IMG/VR virus record: IMGVR_UViG_3300046517_000492
Location: 1 to 23,182 of that record
Source of the DNA: a virus
Length of the DNA stretch: 23,182 nucleotides
Direction: 5' to 3' (one strand)
Below, one piece after another: positions 1,235 through 20,480 of the stretch; the stretch's first letter is position 1, and each line of letters opens with the position of its first letter. The notes beneath the pieces were generated by a model that was given only the letters and a program-made list of their open reading frames with translations, searched no databases and was not told where the DNA came from. The position numbers and the translations under genes were made by a program.

Positions 1235-4200
1235 TCACGGTCCGCCCTGTACCTGTTGATGATGTTCCATCCGGCGCTGCATCTCGGGGGTGGCAGTGCG
1301 GTTGAACTGACGCGTGGCAGCCCGCGACGGGCCAGGTGCCTGTGTCCTCTGGACAATGTCAGAGACTTCTTTTGCCGGCATCTTCAGATCCTCCAGCATC
1401 TGCCGTCGCGCCCCCTCGACGTCGCCCGACAGGATCTTGTCGCGGATCCCCGGCATCGCCGCCTGCTGTTGCGCCGTCTGCCTCTGCTTCATGGCATACG
1501 TCTCGCCGGCTCCTGGCCCGCCAGGGAAGCCCGAGCTGACCGTGGCCAGGCCGGTCACCGGGCCGACCACCTTGGCCGCGGCCACGTAGGGATCGCCCTT
1601 GGTGGGCTTGCCCTGCACGTAGTGCTGATACAGCTCGCCGATCCCCTGCAGCGTCGAGAGCGGCAGCGCCGATGCACCGATGTGCTGCACCACCGCGCCG
1701 GCAATGGCGAGCCGGTCGCTGATGGTCTCCGGATGGGGCTGGTAGATCTTCCGCCCCAGCGTGTCGGAGCCGATGATGGATTCCATGATCGCCCGCACCG
1801 GCGGTGACAGCTTGTTCTCCAGCATGGTGCCGGGATGCCCCCACGGCATCCAGCCCATAAATTCTTCACCCACTTTGCCAGGCGGCAGCCGCAGATAGGT
1901 GCCGCGCCCGGTCGAATCGTTGCCGGCGTACACCCGGTTCTCTTTGCCTGGCTCGTTCCAGTTCTGCGGCAGCACGTTGAAGATCGCCAACGGGTTGTCC
2001 TTGGCGTCCACCACGGCTTGCTTGGCGTCGTCCAGCCACTGGTTGAACACCTGCTGCGCTGCCGGCCCGAGCCCGCCGGCCTGCGGCGACTGCCGTAGTA
2101 CCTGCAGCCCGAGCTGCAGCGCCGCGTTGGCGCCGTAGAACAGTCCGATATCGAGGACGAAGGCCGAGATCGCTTTGCGCTGCAGCGCCCCCTTGGCTGA
2201 CTTCGCCGCCTCCGGGCCGGACATCTGCTCGATGCGTGACAGCACGTGCTTCGGTGCGCCGGTCAGCATGTCCTTGATCACGCCGAGATTGCCCAAGGTG
2301 AAGCTGCGGCTGAACAGCAGCAGGTTCGCCGCCATGTTGGCGGACTGGCTGAGATGCTCCGGTGGCAGCGCACCGGCGTAGCGGTTGGCGATGTGGGCTG
2401 CCATGACGCCGGCCGCATTCTCATCGAGCCCCTTCTTCATCGCGCGCTGCTTCATCGCGTCATAGAGCCCGACTTGCAGCTTGAAGATGTTGTCCCACAA
2501 CAGCGTCTCGTGGACGAAGCGGCCGACCGCGCGCACGCCCTGCAGCGCGCGCTGTGAGCCGCCCAGCGGCGTTGCGTCCATCCTGGCCTGGTCAGCGATC
2601 GACACCGGATCACTGCGCCAGCCTTGCCCCAGTGGGGCCAGCCCGTCCTTGATTGCCGTGTCCATGTACTGGGCGTCATTGCGCAGCCGGCTGCCGTCGC
2701 GGAACACCTGCAGCGTCAGCATCTTGCCTGGCAGCACCGGCAGGGCGCGACCAACCTCCACACCGAGATGGATGAACGGCGAGAACATGATCGAGTTCAT
2801 GATGCCGCCCTTCAGCTTCATCGCCGCGTTGTACCATTCGGGCGATGCCTGCCGCAGCACCGCCTTCAGCGGTCCCTCGAACTCCTTGGCGACGTGCACC
2901 GCCTGCCAGCCGGCACCGGTCCAGCGGCGGAAGCTGGGGTGATCGGCCATCGTGAAGTAATCACCCGGCGTTAATAGACCGGGTATATCGCCGCGGACCA
3001 CCAGGTTCACCCCGGTCTCGCGGCCGACGTAGTCGATCGCGTTCATCAGCTCGACGCCGTGCGCCGCGCGCTCGCCGTCGGCCAGCCGCTGCACCAGGCT
3101 GCGGATGTCGGTCAGCACCTGCGCGCCAGGACCGAAGCGCGCTTGCGCCGCGGCTTCGGTTTCTTCCGGCGTCAGGTGCTCGCGTCTCATGGGGCCTGAC
3201 GTCGTCAGGCCCGTGCGCTTGTCGAGGCCACGGTTGCCGCCGGTGCCACCGCCTTCCGGCCGGCTGAAGCCCAGCCCTTCGGAGTGCACCACGATTTGCC
3301 GCGAGAAGTAATAGGGGATGGGCTTTGCATCGGGCGAGACCATACCGAGCCGCTGGTAGCGTGCCCAAAGTCGGTCAGACAGACCGCCCGGTCCGGCCAG
3401 CGCCTCGACGGTGGCGCGCTCTTTCGCGTTGAGGCCGGCGAGACCGGTCTTGCCGGCGTCGAACGCGGCCCGCCTGGTGGCTTGTTCATCAGGCGGTAGG
3501 TCGGCGATTTGGCTCTCAAATACTGACTGCCGGTCGAGATGGAGAGCTTGTTTGGCACGGGAGGCGGCGTTGAACTCCTTCAGGATGTTCCGGTCGATCA
3601 TGCCGTAGCGGAACATCACCCGGCGCAGGCCGTTGGCAAACGTCGTGGCGAAGGCTTGTGCGCGGGTGGATCCCGCCCGCATCGGTGCCAGGCCGGTCTT
3701 GATCGAGTCCGAGACTGATTTGACCGCATCGACGATGCCTTTGACCGCCGTCTTGATCGCGCCGGGTGTGGCGGGTGGTGGCGTGAGCGTCAGACCTGGC
3801 GCAGCCGGCGCGAACAGCGACAGCCCTTCCTCCGTCACCGCCTTCCTCATGCTCGGTGTGATGTCGAAGGCATGGACGGGCTGCGCGGTGCCGCGCGCCA
3901 TGGTCTCGTCGACCATGCGATCGTGCAGCTTGTCCATCTGCGTACGGATATCATCGCGCTGCGCGGTGATCCGTTGTACCGCGGGATCGTTTTCATCAGC
4001 GCGGAAACCGCCAAGCCGCTCCCATTCTTCGCCTGATCTGCGATCCTGTTCGACCAGCCGCTGCCAGGCAGGCCCGTGTTCCGCCTGCGCCTGCGCGTCC
4101 GGCTTCACCTCGTCGCGGTTGGCGTAGGATTTCGTCACCTCGCCCTGACCAACCTTGGCGCCAAACTTACCGATTATCTTATTGGTCTCGGACGGCAGGA

Positions 4201-7200
4201 TCTTGTCGTAGAAACCCTTCATGCCCTCGCCGCCGACCTTCAGGTCCAGGCCGGAGAGTTCGCGTGCGCGATTCCGCCACCCACCAACGCCGTTGACGTC
4301 CTTCTTCGGCGCGTTCAGCAGTTTCTCGGCGACTTCCTTGCCGATCAGGTCAGGCAATTCCTTGACGTCATCAACGTGCTTGTCGATGACGCGCTGGCCT
4401 GAGTGATCATAGGCATACAACTCACCCCCGCGGTCCGGCGCATTCATGTCGGGGTTGCCGGCCCCCATACTGCTGGCATCATGGAACTCGATGCGGCTGA
4501 TCTGCTTGCTCAGATCGAACCGATCGGCCTGCACCTCACCAGGCGTCCAGGCGACCTTGTCGTAGCCGTTGTCCGCCGCCCATTTGGTGATCCGCTTCAT
4601 CGCCAGGGCGGACCATGAGGTCTTGAAGGGGGCGTTGGGGACGGTCTTGTAAGCCCCTTGGTTCAGTCGATCGACAGTATCGGCAATTGCCGCTTCGGGG
4701 GTTGGGTGGCCGTACGACGTCACGTCGTGACCATCCGGAGAACGGACGACAAACCGCTGCTCTGGTGAGCCATCGGGGTATTCAAAAACGCTCCATCCTT
4801 CCGGTAGCTTGGTGACGTCACCCTGATAACCCCTCTGCCGCCCCGCCTGGTGCCAGTCCGACTGGATCTCGTGCACCAATAGGGTCTTCTTCCCATCAGC
4901 CCCGACGCGATCGTCGAACCGCACGTGGGCCAGTACGTTCGGCTCGGCCCAGTGCGAGGATTGGTAAGGCTTGGGGAGATTGTTGACTTGCCGCTCGATG
5001 TCCTCGTGCCGCCTGGTGGCGTCATGCCAGGCGTTCTCGGTTGCCTCTGCACGTGGATCATTCGCCCCGTGCTCTTCGACCGCCCGCTTCCATGCAGCGA
5101 AACCGTCCGCCCTGGCACGCTTCGCTGCGGTCAGCTCGGCGTACAGCCCGTTATCCTTCTGCGGCAACGTCATCAGCAGCTCACGGTAGTTCTTGCCGCC
5201 GGGGAGGGTGTATTTACCCCACTTGGTGCGGTCGCCGCCTCCCACGCTGCCCCAACCGGCCGGCGCGTTCGGATCGCCGGTCGGTTCCGGCTCGCCGCCC
5301 TTCATCACTTCGCGCACGTCGACCTGGTGCTCACGGAGGTAGTCTTGCAGCGCTTCCTTGGTGACCGACTTCTGGTTCTTGAGCCAGTCGTCGACGCCGG
5401 TCCAGCGCAGCTCCTCCGGCTTCACGCCGGGTGCCTTGCGCAGCATGGCCAGGAACTGTTCGCCCGACCCCTTGGCCTGCTTCAGCGCCTCGACCGCGCG
5501 CTGAACCCCGCTGTAGAGCGGGACGCGGTCGTCATCCTCAGAGAGAGAGCGGGGAAGATCTTCTAGGAGGCGACCTTGCGTTCCCGGCGGTTGCTGTCGG
5601 GGTGCAGGTTCGGGTCTTGCAGCCACTGGCGAACCGCCTTCAGGTCGCCCTGCAGCGCCGGATCCCACTGCGCCTGCGGATGGTTTTCCCACTGGGCGAG
5701 GAAGTCCTGCAATTCCTTCGTCGGGCCAAACGGCGTCGGTGAATCGACGAGATACGTCTGGGGCATGGCCGGCTCTCCTCGCGATCTGGTCGACCAAGTC
5801 AGCGACCGGTTTGGGCAACACGTGGGTTGATACATAGTCGATCATGCCGTGAACATGAAGGATGCGGCTGATCAGATCGTGGAACGCATTGTTGGCCTCC
5901 TCTGCGGTTACCAGGCCGGCAGCCCACAGGCGCTCAAGTGCGGTCTTGGCAACCGCCCTGGCGTCCTCATGAGCCTGTGTGATGTCGGCGAGGCCCTCCA
6001 CGGTTCCCCGCTTGGCCTGGAGTTTTGGCCCGGTCGCGACGGTGTAGACCGCGCCATTCTCTCCCACCGCGACCAGCCTGGCGATCGAGGGGATAGCGAC
6101 AGTCGCGCGCAGATCGCCGCTGGAGAATGACCCCGAGTTCGGATGGTTGTGGTGGACGACCAGGCTGTTCTCGGGAAGCTGCACCAGGGCAGGGCTATCG
6201 ACCGCGACCGTCTTCGGGTTGTTGCTGGTGCCGGCGTGGATGATCTCACCGGTGGCCAGGTCGACGATGGCGATGTGCTCATTGCCGGTCGCGCGCCCCT
6301 GGAAGAACACGAAATTCTTCGCGGTGTTGTTGGCGGTCTCCGGCGTGTGCGCCGGCACCTGGCTCAGCTCGTCGGTGGCGATCTTGAAGGCGGAGACCTT
6401 GGGCGCTGCGGGCTGCGGCTCCATCGGCAGGCTGGGCTGCGGCGGCGCTTCACGTGAAAACAGCCCGCCTGGTTCCTGCTGCGGCACCTTGGGCTCCAGC
6501 CCGCCGCGCCCGGTGGCGTCACGCGCGGCCTGTGCCTGCACAGCCGAACCACCCATGCCAGGCATCGCCTGCTGGCGCGGGTCGGTCCGGATGGTGGGTT
6601 CGGCGGTGCGCGCCGGGGCTGGCGCGGTGGGCGTCGCCCGCCCGAAGATATCTGCCTGACCGGTGACGATCCCTGGCCGACGGCCGGCCTCTAATGCATC
6701 CGGCGGCGCTTCTCCGCGTGCCGCTTCGCTGCTTCCTGGAGGCCAATCAACACCTCCAGCTTGTCCATCACCTTCTTCGCCAGCAGGCGTGTCTCGTGGG
6801 TCGTGTCCACGTCCCTCACCAAATGCCGCGCGTTGCTCCAGCGCTGCAGCAGTGTCCGCCTGTCGGTGCTCACGCTCCAGATCCTCCAGCGTGCGCGCCT
6901 GGGTCTTCCCGCCATACGTCTGGCGTGGTGTGGTCGCGCCGCTGTCTCTTTTAGCGGCGCTTTCCATCTCAGCATAGTCGGCATCAATTTCGGCAAACCG
7001 CTGCGCCTGCTCTTCGGTGGAAAGCCGGTCGTGCACCGCGTCGTAGAACTGATCGCGGTTCATCCCCTTCATGTCGATTTCGTACTGCTGGGCCAGGCTC
7101 TCGATCTCACGGTTGCGATCGAGCGCGCCGTGGTGCGCCTGAACCGCTTCGTGGTCCTGGTCGGAATACTGCGGGTTGCCGCGGTGGTCCTCCGCGATGG

Positions 7201-9406
7201 CATCGAGCAGCACGTTCTCCGGCGGCGGCTCGCTATGGTCGGGGAAGTAGCCGGCTTCCCAGGCACGCTCGGCTGCGTTCTGCAGCGACATGCCGTTGCC
7301 CTCTTTGCGGATAAAGCCGGGGCGCCCCTTGGTGCCGCCGAAGATCGCCTTGAGGTTGCCGCCGGTATCGACGATGCCGCCGGGGTTGGTCACCTGGTGG
7401 ACGCCTTCGCCGGTCGTCCAGTCCTGCTTCAGGAAGCTGATCAGCCGCTGCGGCTGCTTCGGCACCGGCTCGAACGGCGTGACCGCCTTCGGCTGCCGCG
7501 GCGCCTTCGGTGGCTTCTCGGTATCGTCCGGCGGTACCTCAGCGGCCTCATCGCGCGGAGCAGGGGAGGGGGGTGGTGGCTTGCCACGCACCTCAGTCGG
7601 CTCCTCGACAGGGGGCGTAGGCGGTGGGGGCTCGGTCCGGACGATAGGATCTTCGGTCCGGACAGTTGCTTCGGCGGTCCGCCTGGGTGGAATCGAGTCC
7701 GGTGTGGGTCTGCTGGAGTCCGGCTCGGTGATCGGTCGCCCCGGCGTCAGGTGGCTGTAGTCGACTTCAGTCCCTGGCGGAGCTGGCGGAGGCGGAGGTG
7801 GCGTCGGAGGCGGGGGTAGGGTTACCGCATCAGGCAGCGGCGGTAAGCCTGCAGCGTCCCGCTCCAGATCTCGCTGCGCCCGTTGCTCCGGGGTAAGGGC
7901 GCCCGGACCACCCGGACCACCCGGACCGCCGCCGGGAGGCGTGCCGGTACCGCCAGGCGGCGTTTCGGTTCCCGTTTCCCCGGCTGGTGCGCCTCGACCG
8001 CGGACGCCTCTGACCGCGAGATGAGCCAGCGCCGGCGCCCCGAGCCCGACGCCTGTCATGATCGCGGCGTTGGCGAGATCATCCGTGACCGGCTTGCCCT
8101 GCTCGACGTTCTGCGCGGCCTGCTCGCCGACCGCGACGCCGGCCTGCGCCGGGATCTGCGTCTTCATCGGCGCCGACGGCTTGATCCACTCGCCCTCTTT
8201 GGTCACCTTCAGGCCAGCCGATACCGCCGCCTCTTCCAGCCCTTTCCCGCCGACAAAGATCTGCCGGAGGAATGGCACCGCCCAACCGCCTCCCTCGAAC
8301 AAGGCGAACGACAAGGCGGTGCCAGCGCCCGTCGTGCCGGCGCGCGTAATGGCGGAGTGGAACGCCTCGTTCTCCTTGCCGGGACCAAGGCGGGTCAGCT
8401 CCTCGTAGTAGAGCGGGGCGAATTCCTTGGCGGCGGACACCGTGCCGGCAGCCAGGCCGGCACCCGCCGCGCCGGTCAGCAGCGCGCCAGGTCCGAGTTC
8501 AGATCCCGCTGCCGCGCCAGCGACACCGCCAACAACCGCCGCGCCCATTTCCGGCGCCAGCGAGGTCACGCCCTTGGTGAGCTGATAGACGCCTTTGGAG
8601 ACGCCAGCCCAGCTTGGCGCCGACAGCCAGTCGATCGGCTTCGACAAAGCCTCTTCTTCCGGCGACAGCTTCGGCGGCGCACCAGGCTTGCCGGTCCTGG
8701 CCATCTCGACCGCCTGCCGACCAGCCGTGATGTTCTCTCGCACGCCGCCGACCGCGCCGAGCGTGCCGGCCTGCAGCAGACCGGGTGTCGCGACCGCCGG
8801 CGGTTCGGTCGTGGTCGCGGGCTGCTCCGTCTTCGGCGCTGTGGCACCTTCATCCGTCTTGGCGGGTGGCGGCTTCACCATCGGCACATCGTCGAAGTTC
8901 AGACTTGGTGGCGCTGACGGCTTGCCGGCCATCGGGACGTCGTCGAAGTTCAGCTTCGGCGCCGCTCGTGAAGCCGGTGCCCGCTGCGCACGGTAGCGGT
9001 CCCAGCGGTCAATGATGTTCTGCGCGTATTGTTGCGGACCATCCGCATCGAGGTTGCCGTGCGGTCCGGCATTGTAGGCAGCCAGCGCTTTGTAGGGATT
9101 GCCCTCGAAGGTCTTCCATTGCTCGCTGAGATACTTGGCGCCGCCGTGGATGTTCTGCTCCGCCTCGAACGGACGCGTCACGCCGAGATCGTTCGCCGTC
9201 TCTGGCATGAGCTGCATGACGCCTTGCGCACCGGCCGGTGAGACCGCCCAGCGATTGTGCTTCGGGCCGCTCTCAACGTCAGCCACCGCGCGCAGCAACA
9301 GCGGATCAAGATTGTGCTCAGCGCCGGCCGCTTGAAAGATCGGCGTGTAATCCGCGTCAGTCTTCGATGGCGCGGCAGGCACATCGGAGAAGTCCAGCGG
9401 TGGCAT
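1235..9406 (-). CDS. Giant phage polyvalent protein with N-terminal lytic transglycosylase (2723 aa)
   Basis: ATG at 9406 overlaps the preceding stop (TGATG). Domains in order: residues 22-140 are a soluble lytic transglycosylase-like domain with catalytic Glu45 (DVESG), GVMQLMP (62-68) and AYNAGP (110-115). Residues 286-326 are a Gly/Ala-rich hydrophobic segment. About 470-645 is Pro-rich linker, and 650-810 a polyvalent-protein module (MSLQNAAERAWEAGYFPD). About 1035-1130 is a JAMM/MPN-like domain with HNHP at 1086-1089 and SSGD after it. Residues 1295-1865 form a large polyvalent-associated region (LYSGVQRAVE, YTLPGGKNYRELL, LVHEIQSDWHQAGRQ, FDITPSMRKAV). About 2080 to the end resembles the LPD38-type region. 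Families with this architecture are large proteins of phages and mobile elements thought to enter the cell with the DNA. The transglycosylase would cleave peptidoglycan during entry; the roles of the other domains are unknown. The two linkers near residues 845-906 and 1214-1282 coincide with nested small ORFs (separate entries). Confidence 0.9.
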   Translation of the reverse strand: MPPLDFSDVPAAPSKTDADYTPIFQAAGAEHNLDPLLLRAVADVESGPKHNRWAVSPAGAQGVMQLMPETANDLGVTRPFEAEQNIHGGAKYLSEQWKTFEGNPYKALAAYNAGPHGNLDADGPQQYAQNIIDRWDRYRAQRAPASRAAPKLNFDDVPMAGKPSAPPSLNFDDVPMVKPPPAKTDEGATAPKTEQPATTTEPPAVATPGLLQAGTLGAVGGVRENITAGRQAVEMARTGKPGAPPKLSPEEEALSKPIDWLSAPSWAGVSKGVYQLTKGVTSLAPEMGAAVVGGVAGAAAGSELGPGALLTGAAGAGLAAGTVSAAKEFAPLYYEELTRLGPGKENEAFHSAITRAGTTGAGTALSFALFEGGGWAVPFLRQIFVGGKGLEEAAVSAGLKVTKEGEWIKPSAPMKTQIPAQAGVAVGEQAAQNVEQGKPVTDDLANAAIMTGVGLGAPALAHLAVRGVRGRGAPAGETGTETPPGGTGTPPGGGPGGPGGPGALTPEQRAQRDLERDAAGLPPLPDAVTLPPPPTPPPPPPAPPGTEVDYSHLTPGRPITEPDSSRPTPDSIPPRRTAEATVRTEDPIVRTEPPPPTPPVEEPTEVRGKPPPPSPAPRDEAAEVPPDDTEKPPKAPRQPKAVTPFEPVPKQPQRLISFLKQDWTTGEGVHQVTNPGGIVDTGGNLKAIFGGTKGRPGFIRKEGNGMSLQNAAERAWEAGYFPDHSEPPPENVLLDAIAEDHRGNPQYSDQDHEAVQAHHGALDRNREIESLAQQYEIDMKGMNRDQFYDAVHDRLSTEEQAQRFAEIDADYAEMESAAKRDSGATTPRQTYGGKTQARTLEDLEREHRQADTAAALEQRAAFGEGRGHDPRDTPAGEEGDGQAGGVDWPPGSSEAARGEAPPDALEAGRRPGIVTGQADIFGRATPTAPAPARTAEPTIRTDPRQQAMPGMGGSAVQAQAARDATGRGGLEPKVPQQEPGGLFSREAPPQPSLPMEPQPAAPKVSAFKIATDELSQVPAHTPETANNTAKNFVFFQGRATGNEHIAIVDLATGEIIHAGTSNNPKTVAVDSPALVQLPENSLVVHHNHPNSGSFSSGDLRATVAIPSIARLVAVGENGAVYTVATGPKLQAKRGTVEGLADITQAHEDARAVAKTALERLWAAGLVTAEEANNAFHDLISRILHVHGMIDYVSTHVLPKPVADLVDQIARRAGHAPDVSRRFTDAVWPDEGIAGLPRPVGKPSAGAVGSGAAGRPEGGSPVAARPEPAPRQQPPGTQGRLLEDLPRSLSEDDDRVPLYSGVQRAVEALKQAKGSGEQFLAMLRKAPGVKPEELRWTGVDDWLKNQKSVTKEALQDYLREHQVDVREVMKGGEPEPTGDPNAPAGWGSVGGGDRTKWGKYTLPGGKNYRELLMTLPQKDNGLYAELTAAKRARADGFAAWKRAVEEHGANDPRAEATENAWHDATRRHEDIERQVNNLPKPYQSSHWAEPNVLAHVRFDDRVGADGKKTLLVHEIQSDWHQAGRQRGYQGDVTKLPEGWSVFEYPDGSPEQRFVVRSPDGHDVTSYGHPTPEAAIADTVDRLNQGAYKTVPNAPFKTSWSALAMKRITKWAADNGYDKVAWTPGEVQADRFDLSKQISRIEFHDASSMGAGNPDMNAPDRGGELYAYDHSGQRVIDKHVDDVKELPDLIGKEVAEKLLNAPKKDVNGVGGWRNRARELSGLDLKVGGEGMKGFYDKILPSETNKIIGKFGAKVGQGEVTKSYANRDEVKPDAQAQAEHGPAWQRLVEQDRRSGEEWERLGGFRADENDPAVQRITAQRDDIRTQMDKLHDRMVDETMARGTAQPVHAFDITPSMRKAVTEEGLSLFAPAAPGLTLTPPPATPGAIKTAVKGIVDAVKSVSDSIKTGLAPMRAGSTRAQAFATTFANGLRRVMFRYGMIDRNILKEFNAASRAKQALHLDRQSVFESQIADLPPDEQATRRAAFDAGKTGLAGLNAKERATVEALAGPGGLSDRLWARYQRLGMVSPDAKPIPYYFSRQIVVHSEGLGFSRPEGGGTGGNRGLDKRTGLTTSGPMRREHLTPEETEAAAQARFGPGAQVLTDIRSLVQRLADGERAAHGVELMNAIDYVGRETGVNLVVRGDIPGLLTPGDYFTMADHPSFRRWTGAGWQAVHVAKEFEGPLKAVLRQASPEWYNAAMKLKGGIMNSIMFSPFIHLGVEVGRALPVLPGKMLTLQVFRDGSRLRNDAQYMDTAIKDGLAPLGQGWRSDPVSIADQARMDATPLGGSQRALQGVRAVGRFVHETLLWDNIFKLQVGLYDAMKQRAMKKGLDENAAGVMAAHIANRYAGALPPEHLSQSANMAANLLLFSRSFTLGNLGVIKDMLTGAPKHVLSRIEQMSGPEAAKSAKGALQRKAISAFVLDIGLFYGANAALQLGLQVLRQSPQAGGLGPAAQQVFNQWLDDAKQAVVDAKDNPLAIFNVLPQNWNEPGKENRVYAGNDSTGRGTYLRLPPGKVGEEFMGWMPWGHPGTMLENKLSPPVRAIMESIIGSDTLGRKIYQPHPETISDRLAIAGAVVQHIGASALPLSTLQGIGELYQHYVQGKPTKGDPYVAAAKVVGPVTGLATVSSGFPGGPGAGETYAMKQRQTAQQQAAMPGIRDKILSGDVEGARRQMLEDLKMPAKEVSDIVQRTQAPGPSRAATRQFNRTATPEMQRRMEHHQQVQGGP
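5563..5766 (-). CDS. Nested small gene inside the giant ORF, +1 frame (67 aa)
   Basis: ATG at 5766 follows GAGGAGAG (5773-5780) with the GAGGAG core 8 nt from the start; TAG at 5563-5565. The product (MPQTYLVDSPTPFGPTKE..., then DFLAQWENHPQAQWDPALQG and AVRQWLQDPNL) reads like a normal soluble protein with two amphipathic helices. By hand count, 56 of 67 codons (84%) end in G or C, against 28 of 68 (41%) in the giant's frame over the same bases. The giant's frame here is a low-complexity linker (AGLPRPVGKPSAGAVGSG...). I have an impression of a family of small phage proteins opening with 'TYLVDSPTPF', but cannot confirm it. It would be translated from the same mRNA. Function unknown. The alternative is a shadow ORF, which the codon bias argues against. 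Confidence 0.7.
   Translation of the reverse strand: MPQTYLVDSPTPFGPTKELQDFLAQWENHPQAQWDPALQGDLKAVRQWLQDPNLHPDSNRRERKVAS
5773..5780 (-). promoter_or_regulatory. Internal Shine-Dalgarno site for the nested gene at 5563-5766
   Basis: Read on the minus strand, the octamer is GAGGAGAG, followed by CCGGCC and ATG. A site of this strength at ideal spacing deep inside another reading frame supports internal initiation. Confidence 0.6.
6691..6873 (-). CDS. Second nested small gene inside the giant ORF, +1 frame (60 aa)
   Basis: GTG at 6873 lies 9 nt after GGAGG (6883-6887); TAG at 6691-6693. The product starts MSTDRRTLLQRWSNARHLVRD and continues with THETRLLAKKVMDKLEVL, a basic, strongly helical small protein ending KRHAEKRRRMH. 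By hand count 53 of 60 sense codons (88%) end in G or C, whereas the giant's frame over the same bases has 24 of 61 (39%) and encodes a Gly/Glu/Pro-rich linker. The giant's codon bias returns to normal right after this stop. The ORF is open further upstream in this frame, but the Arg-rich extension looks like shadow. The basic C-terminus could bind nucleic acid, but no function can be assigned. Confidence 0.62.
   Translation of the reverse strand: MSTDRRTLLQRWSNARHLVRDVDTTHETRLLAKKVMDKLEVLIGLQEAAKRHAEKRRRMH
6883..6887 (-). promoter_or_regulatory. Internal Shine-Dalgarno site for the nested gene at 6691-6873
   Basis: The minus strand reads GGAGG followed by ATCTGGAGC and GTG. A second GGAG lies directly before the GTG. 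The spacing of 9 nt is normal, which is why I chose this GTG over the longer upstream reading. Confidence 0.55.
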
Positions 9407-12400
9407 CAGAGCCCCGTTGGGTCGTAACCGGCATCTTGGATGCGCTTACGTATGACGTTCGAATCCTTCCCCTCAGCAATAGCCGCAGCCGCTCGTTGTT
9501 TGACGTCATCCGGCATTGGTTTCAGAGCTGGCGCCGCCGTGGTCGATGACGTGCTCGCCGGCGTGCCTGAGACGGTCGTACGTCCCTTCTGCGCGCCGGC
9601 AATCGCCTCATCCCATGTCAGCGGCTTCGCAGTGCCTTGTGCGGTGAGGTAGTTCTTCGCCGCCACGTTCATGGTGTTGTTGTCGACATTGGCCTTGAGC
9701 TGTGCGGCCTTCGCCTCATTGCTCTCCAATGCCTGCTGCAGACGCAGATTGTAGTTTGCGTCAGCCTGCTTTTCGGTTGCCTGATGATGCGTCGTCGTCT
9801 CGCTGAGGTTAGCCCACCGGAAGTCGATGCCCTTGATGTGGTCGAAGGCTTCGGCCGGCGTGTAGTTCGCGCCGGTGGCTGGGTTGATGGTGTTCTGGAA
9901 GGTCAGTGCCGCTTGCTGCTGCAGATCAGCCAGGGTCGCTTTAGGGTGGTCGCTTCGGTATTGCATCGCCGCGATCTTGGCGTCGTTCAATTGGCTGGTG
10001 ACGTCGATCCTGCGGTTGGCAGTCGCGCTGGTTGCCCGGTGATAGTCGGACAGTTCCTTCGCCTGTTGCGCGCGCAGATCTTCAGCGGCTTCGGTCTCGC
10101 GCTGCTTCTCGCCGAACTTCACGCCTTCCAATCCGCCGCGGCCGATGTTGACGCCGGCCCATGGTGAGGTGCCGCCCATGGTGCCGAGACCCGCGGCAAC
10201 CAGCGACATCCATGGCGACCGCATGAAGTCGGTGCCGCCTTTGCTGGATAGCGCATCTTTCGATGCGTTGACGCGATCATGCAGTGACTTCGCATCATCG
10301 TCGACGCTGCTGGCGTGAATGCCTGGCGATGGCGGCGAAGCAGCCGGCGAATGCGTGTCGTCGAGACCGCTCGATGAGCCTGGCGCTGCTGGCTGTGCGG
10401 CTGGCCCATCGGGTGTCTTCTTGCCACCGACCATGCCAGCACCGAGCGGTGCGCCACTTTGCGTGCCTGGCGCACCTTTCACGCCGGCGACGTTGGACGA
10501 CGGTGAAGATGGAATAACCGGTTGCGCCATCAATGGCGCTTCGCCACTCGGCGAACCGGTTAGACCCTTGATGCCCGCAGCATTCGATGAAGGATCAGAC
10601 GGCGCGACCGGCTGTGCTGTAATGCCGGTGCCCAGCGGTGTTGTTGCCGCCGCGGCAGATTTCGGCTTCGGCACACCGAGCAAGTCATGCCACCACTGTC
10701 CGGTATCGCTGAGCCGTTCTCCGAGTGTCTTACCGGGAGGTGCGGTGCTGATCTGTGGAGGCACGCGATACGGCGGATCCTGATACCCAGCCCCGGTCGA
10801 CGTAGCCGTGGGTCCGCTTGGAGAACCAGCCGGCCCTTTCACACCAGCGGCGTTGAATGCTGGCGTTGCGGTGCCATCCGGCGTGACCACAATCGTCTGG
10901 GTCTGGTCGTCATCGATACCGCCGCCCTCAGCAAACCCGCGGCCGAGCCTGCCGCCGAAGCGCATCCCGTCGTCACTACCGCCGCCTTCTTGGCTCCTCT
11001 CGTACACGGGTTGCTGTGCCGCGTCTTTCTGCTGCTTCAACAGCGCCGCCTGTATCATCGCGTCGATGTCGGTCTGACTAGGCCCTGCCGGTGCCGCCGC
11101 AGCCGGCTTCGGCGGATTGATCTGGTCCTTCGTCGGGATCTGACCCATCACGCTGGTGAGGTAGTCGTTGAACGAGCCGCCGGCGCCACTTTTGGTACCA
11201 CTTCCGGTACCAGATGTTGCGCCACTTCCGGTACCACTTCCGGTACCCACGCTGAGTTGCGGCACGCTGATGCCGCCTTTGTAGGTCGCCGGCAGCATGC
11301 TGACCTGTGGTGGACCGATGTTGCCGGCGGTAAGAGGCGTGCCGGCCGTGCTGCTCGGTGCAGGGGTGCCAGCAGGCACCTCTTTGCCTACAAAATCGGA
11401 GCCCATGTTGGCTGGCGGAGCCGTTGCGGCATTGGCTTGCGCAGCGGTGACGCCGGCCGGCAACCAACTGCCGCTCGCGGTGCCACCTTCAGCAAAGCCA
11501 CGGCCGAGCCTGCCGCCACGATCGAAATGCACCTGCGAGCTGAGTTCACTCGCAGCCATGCCAGCAGCCGGCGTGCCGTAGAATGTCGCGGCAGCAATGC
11601 CGGCGTCTTTCAACAGCGTGCCGAAGATACTGTCCTTACTACCGCCACCCGTGGTCGTGCTGGTCTGGCCGTAGTTCTTCATAATATTCATGCCGCCGGC
11701 ACGCGGACTGGCGCCTTGCGGGATGATGCTGAGGCTGACGTCCTCGCCGCCGCCACTCGGCAGATCGATGTTGTGCATGCCGCCGGTCGGATCGCTGCCG
11801 CCCATCGCTGGGCTCATGTTGAGACCGCCACCGCCAAGCGCGCGATGCGGGATGCGTCCGCCGCGAGCTACAGCATTCGCGGCCATATCGGCAGCGGCAC
11901 CGGCCGGCAGATCCCAGGCGCCGCTGGCAGCTTGCTGAGCGGCGGTTGAACCAATGCCGCTACCTGTCAGCCAACCATTGTTACCGAACGCACCTGTCGC
12001 CCCCAGCATGCCGACGCCGGCCATGCCCGCACCAGCAATCTGCGATGCCGCACTCGGTCCTGGCACTGTCGACGTGCCGGTGCCGGTGCCGCCGGCCGAA
12101 CTCCCCAAGCCTTCCGCGATATTGGCCAGCCAGCCCGTGCTTTGGAACGGATAGCTCTGCTGCGCCACCCACTGCTCGTACGGGATATTCAAATACTGCT
12201 GCGCCATCTGCTGTTGCTGGCCACCGATCCCCATCAGTGCGCCGGCGCCGGTCAGCGTTGAATTCTGTGCCTGGTTGCCAAGGCTCGCCATGCCGTAGCC
12301 AAGCCCAGAGTTGAGCCAGCCTTGCGCTTCGTTGGCACCCAAGATCTGTTGCGCTGCCTGCTGCTGCAGTTGCGATTGCGTCGTGGCGCCCTGTAGCCCC

Positions 12401-13590
12401 ATCGCGCCGGCACCTTGCGCACCCGACATGCCGAGCTGCGCGCCAGTGGAGGCCGCGCTTAGTCCGGTCTGTGCTGCGCCCTGTGCGGCACCGAGACCAA
12501 GTTGCCCCGCGGACGTGGCAGCACCGGTGCCGATCTGACCGGCGGATGTTTGGGCGCCCAACTCGGTTTGCGCGGCACCTTGCGCGGCGCCCAACCCGAG
12601 TTGTCCTGCGGACGTTGCCGCGCCAAGTCCAAGTTGCCCCGCCGCCGTGGCGCCTTGCGTTTCAAGTTGCGACTGCTGCAGCGCTGCCTGTTCGGCCTGT
12701 GTATATCCCTGTTGATACAGGTTGGCGATCGTCGGCGCCTGTGCGAGCTGCTGTTGATTGGCGAGTGTTGCCTGGGCTACGCCCAGCCTGTCACCACCGA
12801 GCGCGCCTTGCGAAGCGGCATTGCCGCGCAACTGATTTTGCGCCTGTTGGTTTTGATTGTTAAATTGCGACTGCGTCGCATCAACCACATTCTGCGTGTA
12901 AGGCGACATCCACTGCGGGATCTGACCAGGCTGGTAACTTTGCGACGCACTCGTGATGGCGCCGGTGCCTTGCTGACCGGCGCCCATGATGCCACCGACA
13001 CCTTGCTGGCCGGCGCCAGCGATCTGACCAGCGCCACTCATGCCGGCACCGAGGATCCCTTGCGTGGCCTGCTGAGCGGCGTTTTGAATGCCTGACGTGC
13101 CGGCCTGTCCGGCGTTTTGAATGCCGGCGACGCCGGCGCCACCGGCCTGGCCAACATTGTATTGGCCCATCTGCATCTGACCGAGGATGCCTTGCGCGCC
13201 ACTCTGTGCCGCGTTGGTGACTTGCGGTCCGGCGCCTTGCTGCAGGTAGTCCTGGAATTGCTGGGTCTGGAACGGCTGCCCAGCCGCCTGCATGTACTGC
13301 GCCGCGGTGTTGATATACGGCTGCTCGATATTCTGCGCGCCTTCGATCTCCTGGAAGGCGGCGAGTTGGTCAGGCGAGAAGGGGGCGATCAGGCTTTGCG
13401 GCGTGCCTGGGTATTGTTGCAGCGGGGCGTTGGCGGCAGCGTTCGCCTTATCCATCACATGGGAATAGGCGTCGAGGTATTGCTGCGGTGGCGCGTTGTT
13501 GGTTGTCGTGGTCGAGGTGCCGCCGCCCTTACTGCCGCGTGGTGCGTTGCTCCACGAGAAGTCTTCGCTATGAAGTATGCCGCGCATCAT
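9406..13590 (-). CDS. Large Ala/Gln/Gly-rich repetitive protein, probable internal virion/ejection protein (1394 aa)
   Basis: ATG at 13590 (a second ATG follows) overlaps the previous stop as TGATG; the stop at 9406-9408 overlaps the giant gene's ATG. Residues 1-145 are Gln-rich with QQYLDAYSHVMDKANAAANAP. Residues 150-215 and 310-409 are 11-residue repeats. In between (228-280) is the segment YTQNVVDATQSQFNNQ...NAASQGALGGDRLGVAQATL, a pattern I associate with phage proteins encoded beside ejected enzymes. Residues 580-870 carry RGGRIPHRALGG and two GRLGRGFAEGG cassettes, and three copies of NxAGxKGxxGxxSG lie at about 910-1040. The C-terminal third is helical, with SPWMSLVAAGLGTMGG and a terminal IRKRIQDAGYDPTGL. 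It is very poor in Cys and has no signal peptide. Its place next to the transglycosylase-bearing polyvalent protein suggests a packaged protein helping DNA entry. That role is inferred. Confidence 0.85.
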   Translation of the reverse strand: MMRGILHSEDFSWSNAPRGSKGGGTSTTTTNNAPPQQYLDAYSHVMDKANAAANAPLQQYPGTPQSLIAPFSPDQLAAFQEIEGAQNIEQPYINTAAQYMQAAGQPFQTQQFQDYLQQGAGPQVTNAAQSGAQGILGQMQMGQYNVGQAGGAGVAGIQNAGQAGTSGIQNAAQQATQGILGAGMSGAGQIAGAGQQGVGGIMGAGQQGTGAITSASQSYQPGQIPQWMSPYTQNVVDATQSQFNNQNQQAQNQLRGNAASQGALGGDRLGVAQATLANQQQLAQAPTIANLYQQGYTQAEQAALQQSQLETQGATAAGQLGLGAATSAGQLGLGAAQGAAQTELGAQTSAGQIGTGAATSAGQLGLGAAQGAAQTGLSAASTGAQLGMSGAQGAGAMGLQGATTQSQLQQQAAQQILGANEAQGWLNSGLGYGMASLGNQAQNSTLTGAGALMGIGGQQQQMAQQYLNIPYEQWVAQQSYPFQSTGWLANIAEGLGSSAGGTGTGTSTVPGPSAASQIAGAGMAGVGMLGATGAFGNNGWLTGSGIGSTAAQQAASGAWDLPAGAAADMAANAVARGGRIPHRALGGGGLNMSPAMGGSDPTGGMHNIDLPSGGGEDVSLSIIPQGASPRAGGMNIMKNYGQTSTTTGGGSKDSIFGTLLKDAGIAAATFYGTPAAGMAASELSSQVHFDRGGRLGRGFAEGGTASGSWLPAGVTAAQANAATAPPANMGSDFVGKEVPAGTPAPSSTAGTPLTAGNIGPPQVSMLPATYKGGISVPQLSVGTGSGTGSGATSGTGSGTKSGAGGSFNDYLTSVMGQIPTKDQINPPKPAAAAPAGPSQTDIDAMIQAALLKQQKDAAQQPVYERSQEGGGSDDGMRFGGRLGRGFAEGGGIDDDQTQTIVVTPDGTATPAFNAAGVKGPAGSPSGPTATSTGAGYQDPPYRVPPQISTAPPGKTLGERLSDTGQWWHDLLGVPKPKSAAAATTPLGTGITAQPVAPSDPSSNAAGIKGLTGSPSGEAPLMAQPVIPSSPSSNVAGVKGAPGTQSGAPLGAGMVGGKKTPDGPAAQPAAPGSSSGLDDTHSPAASPPSPGIHASSVDDDAKSLHDRVNASKDALSSKGGTDFMRSPWMSLVAAGLGTMGGTSPWAGVNIGRGGLEGVKFGEKQRETEAAEDLRAQQAKELSDYHRATSATANRRIDVTSQLNDAKIAAMQYRSDHPKATLADLQQQAALTFQNTINPATGANYTPAEAFDHIKGIDFRWANLSETTTHHQATEKQADANYNLRLQQALESNEAKAAQLKANVDNNTMNVAAKNYLTAQGTAKPLTWDEAIAGAQKGRTTVSGTPASTSSTTAAPALKPMPDDVKQRAAAAIAEGKDSNVIRKRIQDAGYDPTGL
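11186..11245 (-). repeat. Five 12-bp tandem units coding Gly/Ser/Thr
   Basis: On the plus strand the units are CCACTTTTGGTA, CCACTTCCGGTA, CCAGATGTTGCG, CCACTTCCGGTA and CCACTTCCGGTA, one after another without gaps. They encode the flexible GTGSGTGSGATSGTGSGTKSG stretch of the 1394-aa protein. Near-identity at DNA level indicates recent slippage or expansion; length probably varies between relatives. Confidence 0.8.
12364..12663 (-). repeat. Nine 11-residue repeats (second block) in the 1394-aa protein
   Basis: Residues 310-409 break into 11-residue units such as GLGAATSAGQL, GLGAAQGAAQT, ELGAQTSAGQI, GTGAATSAGQL, GLGAAQGAAQT, GLSAASTGAQL, GMSGAQGAGAM and GLQGATTQSQL. Gly or a hydrophobic residue recurs at fixed positions. 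An 11-residue period fits three turns of alpha-helix (hendecad), so a long, weakly amphipathic helix is likely. Confidence 0.8.
12946..13143 (-). repeat. Six 11-residue repeats (first block) in the 1394-aa protein
   Basis: Residues 150-215 split into GGAGVAGIQNA, GQAGTSGIQNA, AQQATQGILGA, GMSGAGQIAGA, GQQGVGGIMGA and GQQGTGAITSA. The consensus is GQxGxxGIxxA. It has the same period as the second block but a different consensus, so the two blocks are distant relatives or have a shared structural requirement. Confidence 0.8.
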
Positions 13591-19085: not shown

Positions 19086-20480
19086 CTACACACCCGTGTA
19101 GATGATTGTATTCACCATCATGACCGGCGGCATGTTCTGCGTGCTGCCGGCGCCGGTGCCGTAGATGCCGATGCCGGTCGGGGAGTAGCTGTTGTACGTG
19201 CCGACGCCGGCGGCATAGATGCTGACGCCAGTGGCGTGATACTGGATGCTGACGCCGGTGCCAGCGTAGCCGAGGTAGATGCCGGTGTAGTTGCCATAGA
19301 TGCCGATGCCGGTGCCGGAGGGATTGTTGGTGACACCGGTATAGGCGTAGCCGAGATAGATGCTGGTGCCGCGAACATCGGTGCCGATGTTGTGCGCGTG
19401 GTTGCCCTGGACGTCGGTTTGCCAGGTCTGATTGTCGGTGATCTGATGCGAGCTGTTGCCGCCGATAAAGTTGCCGGCACCCGTCATCACCGGCGCAGTG
19501 AAGTTGTGGTTGTGGTTGCCCTGCCCATCGGTGCTGCCGGCATGGGCGTGACCAGGATCGCCGATACCGTGAATGTGCGACGGATCGTTGTGGCTGTGAT
19601 TGTGCCCGCCGTCGGCGATGCCGTGCGCGTGGGTCGGATCGCCGACACCATGCACGTGACTTGGGTCGTTCACGCCATGATTGTGGGTCGGATCGTAAAC
19701 GCTGTGCGCGTGACCGGGATCGTTGATGGTGTGCGTGTGCTGCGGATCGTAAACGCTGTGCGCGTGGCTCTGCAGCATCTCGTTGCCGCCGACGCCCCCC
19801 AGCGTGGTGCCTGGCGTGCCTGAGTTGGCCGTCATCCGACCGGCAGCCGCAGCGCCGCCCATGTTGTCGAGGCCAGCCATGGTCCGGCCGCGGAGGTCAG
19901 GCAGACCGAAGGTCGCGAGACCATCGCCCGCGCCGTAGGTGGTGCCGATCACCGCGAACAGCAGCGCATAGGCGGTGCGCGAGACGAGCTGCCCGTTGCA
20001 CATCAGCCAATGCGGCGGCGCGATAGCGCCGGCATAGTTCATCAGCGCGCCGATCGGCGTGGCACCGACAATGTTGGGCGCATCGATGTTGGTGCCGTCG
20101 CACGCATACCAACTGCTTTGCCCCGGCAACACCGCGATGGTGCGTCCGCCGGCAATACCGGTGGTCAGGATGACGGCGAAGCCCCCGGTCGTCTTGTTCT
20201 GCGCCATGCCCATCTTGGCAACCGCGGGGATGGTGACAGTGCACGCACCGAGCAGCGTGCCGGTGAAGTTGTAGGCAGCCTGCCGCGCCTGATCAGGTGC
20301 GTTGTTTGCAACAGTCAGCGAGTAGGCGGTGAAGCCGGTGAGAGTGATCGGTGAGTTGCCAGCGATTGCCTGCTCAACCACCGCGACCGTGTTATCCCAG
20401 ACGGTACCCCACTGATCCCGCACAGCAGGATCCGCAGTCACCATCATGGCAAATCTTAGGGATGGCGTGTACGACGTCAT
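19086..20480 (-). CDS. Tail-collar-domain fibre protein with His-rich insert (464 aa)
   Basis: ATG at 20480 overlaps the upstream stop (ATGA). Residues 1-130 are a beta-type N-terminal domain. Residues 142-200 are a phage tail collar domain: PIGALMNYAGAIAPPHWLMCNGQLVSR, then LFAVIGTTYGAGDGLATFGLPDLRGR. Residues 239-326 hold about ten His-x-His motifs, many as DPxHxHG, plus HAH at 361-363. Known phage fibres (T4 gp12, lambda side fibre) use such His ladders to bind metal along a trimer axis. Residues 385-446 carry TGIGIYG/TGVSIY repeats, probably also a beta-structured shaft. The end, NMPPVMMVNTIIYTGV, is the usual last strand of a collar domain, so the His and TG segments are an insertion within it. 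It probably trimerises and contacts the host surface. Confidence 0.85.
   Translation of the reverse strand: MTSYTPSLRFAMMVTADPAVRDQWGTVWDNTVAVVEQAIAGNSPITLTGFTAYSLTVANNAPDQARQAAYNFTGTLLGACTVTIPAVAKMGMAQNKTTGGFAVILTTGIAGGRTIAVLPGQSSWYACDGTNIDAPNIVGATPIGALMNYAGAIAPPHWLMCNGQLVSRTAYALLFAVIGTTYGAGDGLATFGLPDLRGRTMAGLDNMGGAAAAGRMTANSGTPGTTLGGVGGNEMLQSHAHSVYDPQHTHTINDPGHAHSVYDPTHNHGVNDPSHVHGVGDPTHAHGIADGGHNHSHNDPSHIHGIGDPGHAHAGSTDGQGNHNHNFTAPVMTGAGNFIGGNSSHQITDNQTWQTDVQGNHAHNIGTDVRGTSIYLGYAYTGVTNNPSGTGIGIYGNYTGIYLGYAGTGVSIQYHATGVSIYAAGVGTYNSYSPTGIGIYGTGAGSTQNMPPVMMVNTIIYTGV
19503..19766 (-). repeat. His-x-His ladder with 24-bp direct repeats
   Basis: This segment encodes residues 239-326 of the collar protein. 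Units have the form DPxHxHGxx, spaced mainly 8-10 residues apart. An exact 24-bp repeat occurs at 19689-19712 and 19743-19766, 54 bp apart, so part of the ladder has expanded recently at DNA level. Confidence 0.8.

Follow-up and report, generated by a model that had tools for sequence, protein, structure and literature searches.

Can a short open reading frame (ORF) that lies wholly inside a much larger one be a gene in its own right, and, if so, does it stand alone? The question is raised by a 23-kb contig from an uncultured virus, of which we analysed the whole stretch of 23,182 nucleotides (the window). The original prediction, made from the letters alone, placed a 67-amino-acid gene inside a 2,723-codon ORF (the giant) in another frame, at a point where the frame of the giant encodes a Pro/Gly/Ala linker. 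We consider it very likely that positions 5563–5766 are a real, conserved protein-coding gene (nested gene 1) in the +1 frame of the giant, in the linker that follows a JAB-like domain. Treatment of this gene as a lone case has to be amended, as the giant contains a second nested gene (nested gene 2; Table 1) and nested genes recur in such giants: judged from sequence, nested gene 1 belongs with other small +1 genes that turn up repeatedly in linkers of polyvalent (DarB-like/PLxRFG) giants.

The giant and its modules

The giant meets the criterion for a polyvalent protein—several unrelated domains in one long polypeptide—with an SLT transglycosylase domain and modules that are reordered among other giants. 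The JAB/RadC name of one domain rests mainly on its motif, because the Pfam RadC match reaches only E = 0.18, below the cut-off; an HNHP..SGD motif is present. The end of this domain overlaps the start of nested gene 1, and the module labelled 'mid' directly precedes and overlaps nested gene 2. Elsewhere on the same strand of the window are a 1,394-amino-acid ORF without a Pfam or PHROGs match (9406–13590) and a gene for a tail-collar-like protein with a long DPxHxH repeat array (19086–20480).

Table 1. Features of the giant ORF and its two nested genes (window coordinates)
Feature	Coordinates	Strand	Description
Giant ORF	1235..9406	(-)	2,723 aa; polyvalent-type multidomain protein
SLT transglycosylase domain	9053..9337	(-)	Giant residues 24-118; E = 4e-20
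Module 'mid'	6788..7492	(-)	Giant residues 639-873; conserved; aligned to the L125 and L154 giants
Shine–Dalgarno sequence, nested gene 2	6883..6887	(-)	GGAGG; 9 nt upstream of GTG
Nested gene 2	6691..6873	(-)	60 aa; GTG start at 6873; +1 frame of giant; L125/L126 homologue
JAB/RadC-like domain	5699..6376	(-)	Giant residues 1011-1236; HNHPNSGSFSSGD motif
Shine–Dalgarno sequence, nested gene 1	5775..5780	(-)	GAGGAG; AGG AGA codons in giant frame; function inferred
Nested gene 1 (product P0001)	5563..5766	(-)	67 aa; +1 frame of giant; codon signal and L154 homologue
Module mod1-3	3812..5545	(-)	Giant residues 1288-1865; conserved; begins right after nested gene 1
C-terminal module	1268..3757	(-)	Giant residues 1884-2713; conserved

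Coding signal of the nested genes

The gene was found as predicted: an ATG at 5766, a TAG ending at 5563, a product of 67 amino acids, and GAGGAG at 5780–5775, 8 nt before the ATG. The middle base of this ATG is a third codon position in the giant frame, where a synonymous change (CAT to CAC) would convert the ATG into ACG. The earlier hand counts of GC content at the third codon position (GC3) were also matched by our recount, with 84% in the nested frame and about 41–42% in the giant frame. Over the bases of 5563–5766, codon positions 1/2/3 are 70/42/84% GC in the nested frame and 84/70/42% GC in the giant frame. Position 3 of the nested frame is position 1 of the giant frame, which in part forces nested GC3 to be high; more can be learned from how low GC3 is in the giant frame. 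When the giant peptide is recoded with the codon usage of the phage, a GC3 of 0.75 ± 0.05 is expected over these bases, against 0.41 observed (z = −6.6; none of 20,000 simulations was as low), and no other 67-codon region of the whole giant has a lower GC3.

By codon-usage score, the nested frame leads by as much as 38 nats over 67 codons relative to the giant frame. Elsewhere in the giant, away from both nested regions, the +1 frame reaches −6.6 nats at best, with a mean of −47. The best-scoring +1 stretch, 5778–5539, is a close fit to the ATG and TAG. An open +1 frame is by itself little evidence at this locus (P = 0.66). In the window, no stop interrupts the nested frame for 25 codons ahead of the ATG; the position of the start therefore rests on the Shine–Dalgarno sequence, the codon signal and the homologue in a related giant (L154) described below. 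The structure model of the product, P0001, was poor (pLDDT 67). The signature seen at nested gene 1 marks a second region of the giant (6886–6647), with z = −5.7 for giant-frame GC3 at nested gene 2.

Homologues in rearranged giants

Closer relatives were gathered by searching with the C-terminal module of the giant. One of them, L154, is 63% identical to the window giant in the best segment of the C terminus and encodes, at its positions 6886–7050, a homologue of P0001 (phmmer E = 2e-4 among 10,854 ORFs; MQTILIDPPSPFAPRSELLAFLRECEASKSKDRPEVQRAMAEVRGYLARRKADS; 41% identical in the alignment). The giant that holds this homologue in its +1 frame has 2,664 codons; GGAG precedes the ATG of the homologue, and a stop codon lies directly before the ATG, which excludes entry by frameshift there. 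The layouts of the two giants differ, with the order JAB, gene 1, mod, C in the window and mod, JAB, nested gene, C in L154; the nested gene thus stays with the JAB-like domain under module reordering. Similarity is greater in the nested frame than in the giant frame (BLOSUM 81 versus 40), with only P = 0.03–0.045 and a single homologue behind this frame-specific conservation. For nested gene 2, a homologue that is also nested in the +1 frame was found in L125 and L126 (E = 7e-10), likewise where the 'mid' module ends and with the GGAGG..GTG region conserved; here the nested frame scores 121 versus 57 for the giant frame (BLOSUM, P = 0.002–0.003). The nested sequences of L125 and L126 are identical, so that they are effectively one observation.

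Homologues that kept the linker and broke the nested frame would have refuted the original prediction; the outcome was the opposite in L154, the sole homologue found. The search for relatives of the 67-amino-acid product succeeded in part, yielding this nested homologue and no free-standing one. P0001 alone had no homologue in phages, plasmids, viral_contigs, genome_contigs, PHROGs or Pfam; a profile of P0001 and its L154 homologue retrieved nothing new in genomes or viruses, and a profile of nested gene 2 retrieved L125/L126 again and nothing else. Microbacterium matches to P0001 (E about 1–8) were taken as chance, and a nested ORF before mod1 in L003 is not claimed as a relative (pairwise E = 0.04). 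Support for the nested-gene reading comes from codon usage, from a start with a Shine–Dalgarno sequence and from the fact that a rearranged giant carries a homologue in its +1 frame, too. The term 'overprinted', which had been applied to the gene, implies that the small gene arose later; the nested gene holds, and the order of origin is not shown. The small gene may predate the giant linker, the giant frame then running through it as a low-complexity linker.

The N1 family

Wider relatives of the giant contain a nested family of ~129 amino acids, N1. The starting point was a nested protein of L007, which has near full-length matches inside giant genes of five cultured phages: Pseudomonas phage Skulduggery, Serratia phage Parlo, Klebsiella phage ZX1 and two Vibrio phages. 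A sixth cultured phage with N1 is Ruegeria phage 45A6. All six carry N1 in the +1 frame of a giant gene, without a CDS in the deposited annotation; in Skulduggery it spans 33577–33963 of MF042361. A profile search found N1 in 37 viral contigs. We examined 42 loci, with 36 distinct proteins among them and 45A6 not counted, and in every one the N1 ORF is in the +1 frame and wholly within the giant. Amino acid identity of N1 exceeds that of the giant frame at every divergence (58 versus 38% at 60–70% DNA identity), and, of the three nested codon positions, the second differs least and the third most.

The giant frame is open through N1 in 36 of the 36 distinct copies and the third frame in none. 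When N1 is recoded with phage codons, the giant frame is open by chance in a mean of ~3% per copy, and in 0 of 2,000 recodings for the AT-richer Vibrio phages; both frames therefore appear to be kept. Because of the relatedness of the copies, the per-copy probabilities should not simply be multiplied. Taken by themselves, the two window genes would leave the giant frame open by chance with probabilities of 0.20 and 0.14, and selection for both frames is thus argued from N1.

A nested-frame stop stands directly before the ATG in 10 of the 36 copies, and 31 have an upstream motif that resembles a Shine–Dalgarno sequence. N1 always precedes the same giant module, an NGTGTGKT helicase-like domain (630/630 pairs alike downstream), and the part of the giant upstream of N1 varies (193/630 pairs alike). 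The predicted fold is compact and helical (pLDDT 84, pTM 0.77). We found no relatives of N1 as a family in PHROGs, and none among solved or viral structures in fold libraries; as modelled, N1 is a conserved, confidently folded protein without a database family. The family offers a direct way to test the origin of overlapping genes. In L096 (5842–6000), L097, L098, L100, L101 and L105, a further small ORF, N2 (~53 amino acids), has its TAA or TGA stop immediately ahead of the N1 ATG, forming tandem nested genes in one frame.

Nested genes across giants

Long ORFs of the fetched relatives were scanned against synonymous shuffles, which uncovered many nested genes, nearly all in the +1 frame. When only loci that had not been fetched for nested genes are considered, a strong +1 signal is present in 13 of 97 giants and in 2 of 179 other long ORFs (Fisher P = 4e-5); none of either set has a strong +2 signal. 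Giants are longer than the control ORFs, and the +1 excess per codon is about 3-fold; the counts ignore phylogeny. One nested +1 protein, from a GC-poor giant (L063, 4011–4337), matches phrog_24764 (E = 9e-7) and phrog_13736 (E = 9e-4), which shows that, in at least one case, a nested protein has look-alikes among annotated phage proteins. Both PHROGs are of unknown function and neither matches P0001 or the N1 family. Long antisense 'giants' in the all-versus-all table were ignored as shadow frames, and where stop-to-stop ORFs scored high at their 5′ ends, as the 934-codon ORF of the window did, overlap with the preceding gene was taken as the cause. Other small +1 families are common to giants (L033/L035/L047; L003/L130 and L150; L014 and L019; L019 and L034) and include MPYKS[KQ]AQQ proteins.

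Alternative explanations

A programmed +1 frameshift from the giant into the nested frame, producing a truncated giant that ends at the nested stop, would be consistent with signals that are nearly all +1 and with the 25 open codons ahead of the ATG in the window. We regard it as very improbable, given that in L154 and 10 of the 36 N1 copies a nested-frame stop immediately precedes the ATG, that homology begins at the Met and that Shine–Dalgarno motifs stand ahead of it. An equally slight prospect is that the window gene is an unexpressed ORF that arose by chance in a low-complexity linker of odd codon usage. Open +1 frames are indeed common in Pro/Gly/Ala linkers and nested GC3 mirrors the first-position GC of the giant, but this reading has to contend with the depressed giant-frame GC3, with a homologue at the matching place and with a signal that is mostly absent from control long ORFs. 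Scarcely credible is the proposal that compensating indels moved the true linker of the giant into another frame: the same frame pattern would be expected across a bounded stretch, but the coding stretch starts near an ATG with a Shine–Dalgarno sequence and ends close to the stop, and in L154 the homologue is bounded by a start and a stop of its own.

The giant itself might not be one protein, if adjacent and out-of-frame small genes only look fused because a GC-rich frame is open by chance. Over one short nested gene in a GC-rich locus, the giant frame is open by chance with a probability of 0.1–0.55, a range that includes both values for the window, and mod1 is near the ORF start in some relatives, so separate genes exist. 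Nevertheless, we judge this improbable: the giant frame is open in every N1 copy against about 3% each, with the third frame always closed; chance opened the Vibrio copies in none of the 2,000 recodings; and the downstream module in the window lacks an obvious start of its own ahead of its conserved region.

Possible mechanism and role

The sequences provide a coding signature, conserved nested homologues, conserved starts and, for N1, an open giant frame; in the absence of expression data, translation and function of the nested genes are inferred. In the reading that we prefer, a gene nested in one long giant, ribosomes would start nested gene 1 independently at its ATG behind GAGGAG, on the mRNA of the giant, and translation in the giant frame would turn these bases into a flexible Pro/Gly/Ala linker as well. 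That the giant is packaged in the virion and injected is inferred from its class (PMC5512222) and from neighbouring virion genes. The nested product could be a companion—an inhibitor, chaperone or packaging partner—of the adjoining giant domain. We propose this because nested genes keep their neighbouring domain while the rest of the giant reshuffles; the suggestion is tentative and may well be wrong, as function is inferred from this linkage argument only and mere nearness would also hold a nested gene and the adjoining domain together. In a similarly speculative extension, polyvalent giants might be chains of cassettes, each an effector domain with a small companion gene overprinted in the +1 frame at its edge; while the virus is being produced in a cell, the companion would restrain or chaperone its domain, and several linkers would be no more than these small genes read out of frame. 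Nested proteins may supply partners or inhibitors of injected anti-host domains.

Relation to known systems

Overprinted phage genes are well known, for example Rz1 (PMC9409062). As in lambda-type Rz/Rz1 spanins, nested gene 1 is a small phage gene wholly inside a larger one, in another frame and of a kind that often goes unannotated; unlike in those spanins, its host is a polyvalent-type giant, and several nested genes are possible per giant. P0001 lacks cysteine and therefore a lipobox, so the criterion for an Rz1-type o-spanin is not met. Phage genes can also be embedded in frame, as is the second endolysin within lysA of Ms6 (PMC3111421). There, too, one locus has two products, but these share a frame, whereas the giant and its nested gene use different frames and encode unrelated proteins. 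Polyvalent, DarB-like antirestriction giants have been described (PMC5512222), and the host ORF is likewise multidomain (SLT and JAB-like, with a DarB-type helicase module in the N1 giants). Nested genes in linkers are not described in that article, where 'overlap' occurs 0 times and 'nested' twice, including for a structural hairpin and, in the passages seen, not for a gene within a gene. No recurrent set of nested genes in the linkers of polyvalent giants was found in the literature searched, which included few subscription papers or preprints, and an earlier description is not excluded.

As overlaps of this kind are generally ruled out by gene finders, annotation may lack a layer of small phage genes in a class of very large ones. 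The giants concerned include those of phages isolated on Pseudomonas, Serratia, Klebsiella, Vibrio and Ruegeria. Besides N1, the Parlo and ZX1 giants each contain an extra +1 ORF with coding signal (L084, codon ~785; L085, codon ~965), and these two look alike (..RFL..ITxxQ..FL..).
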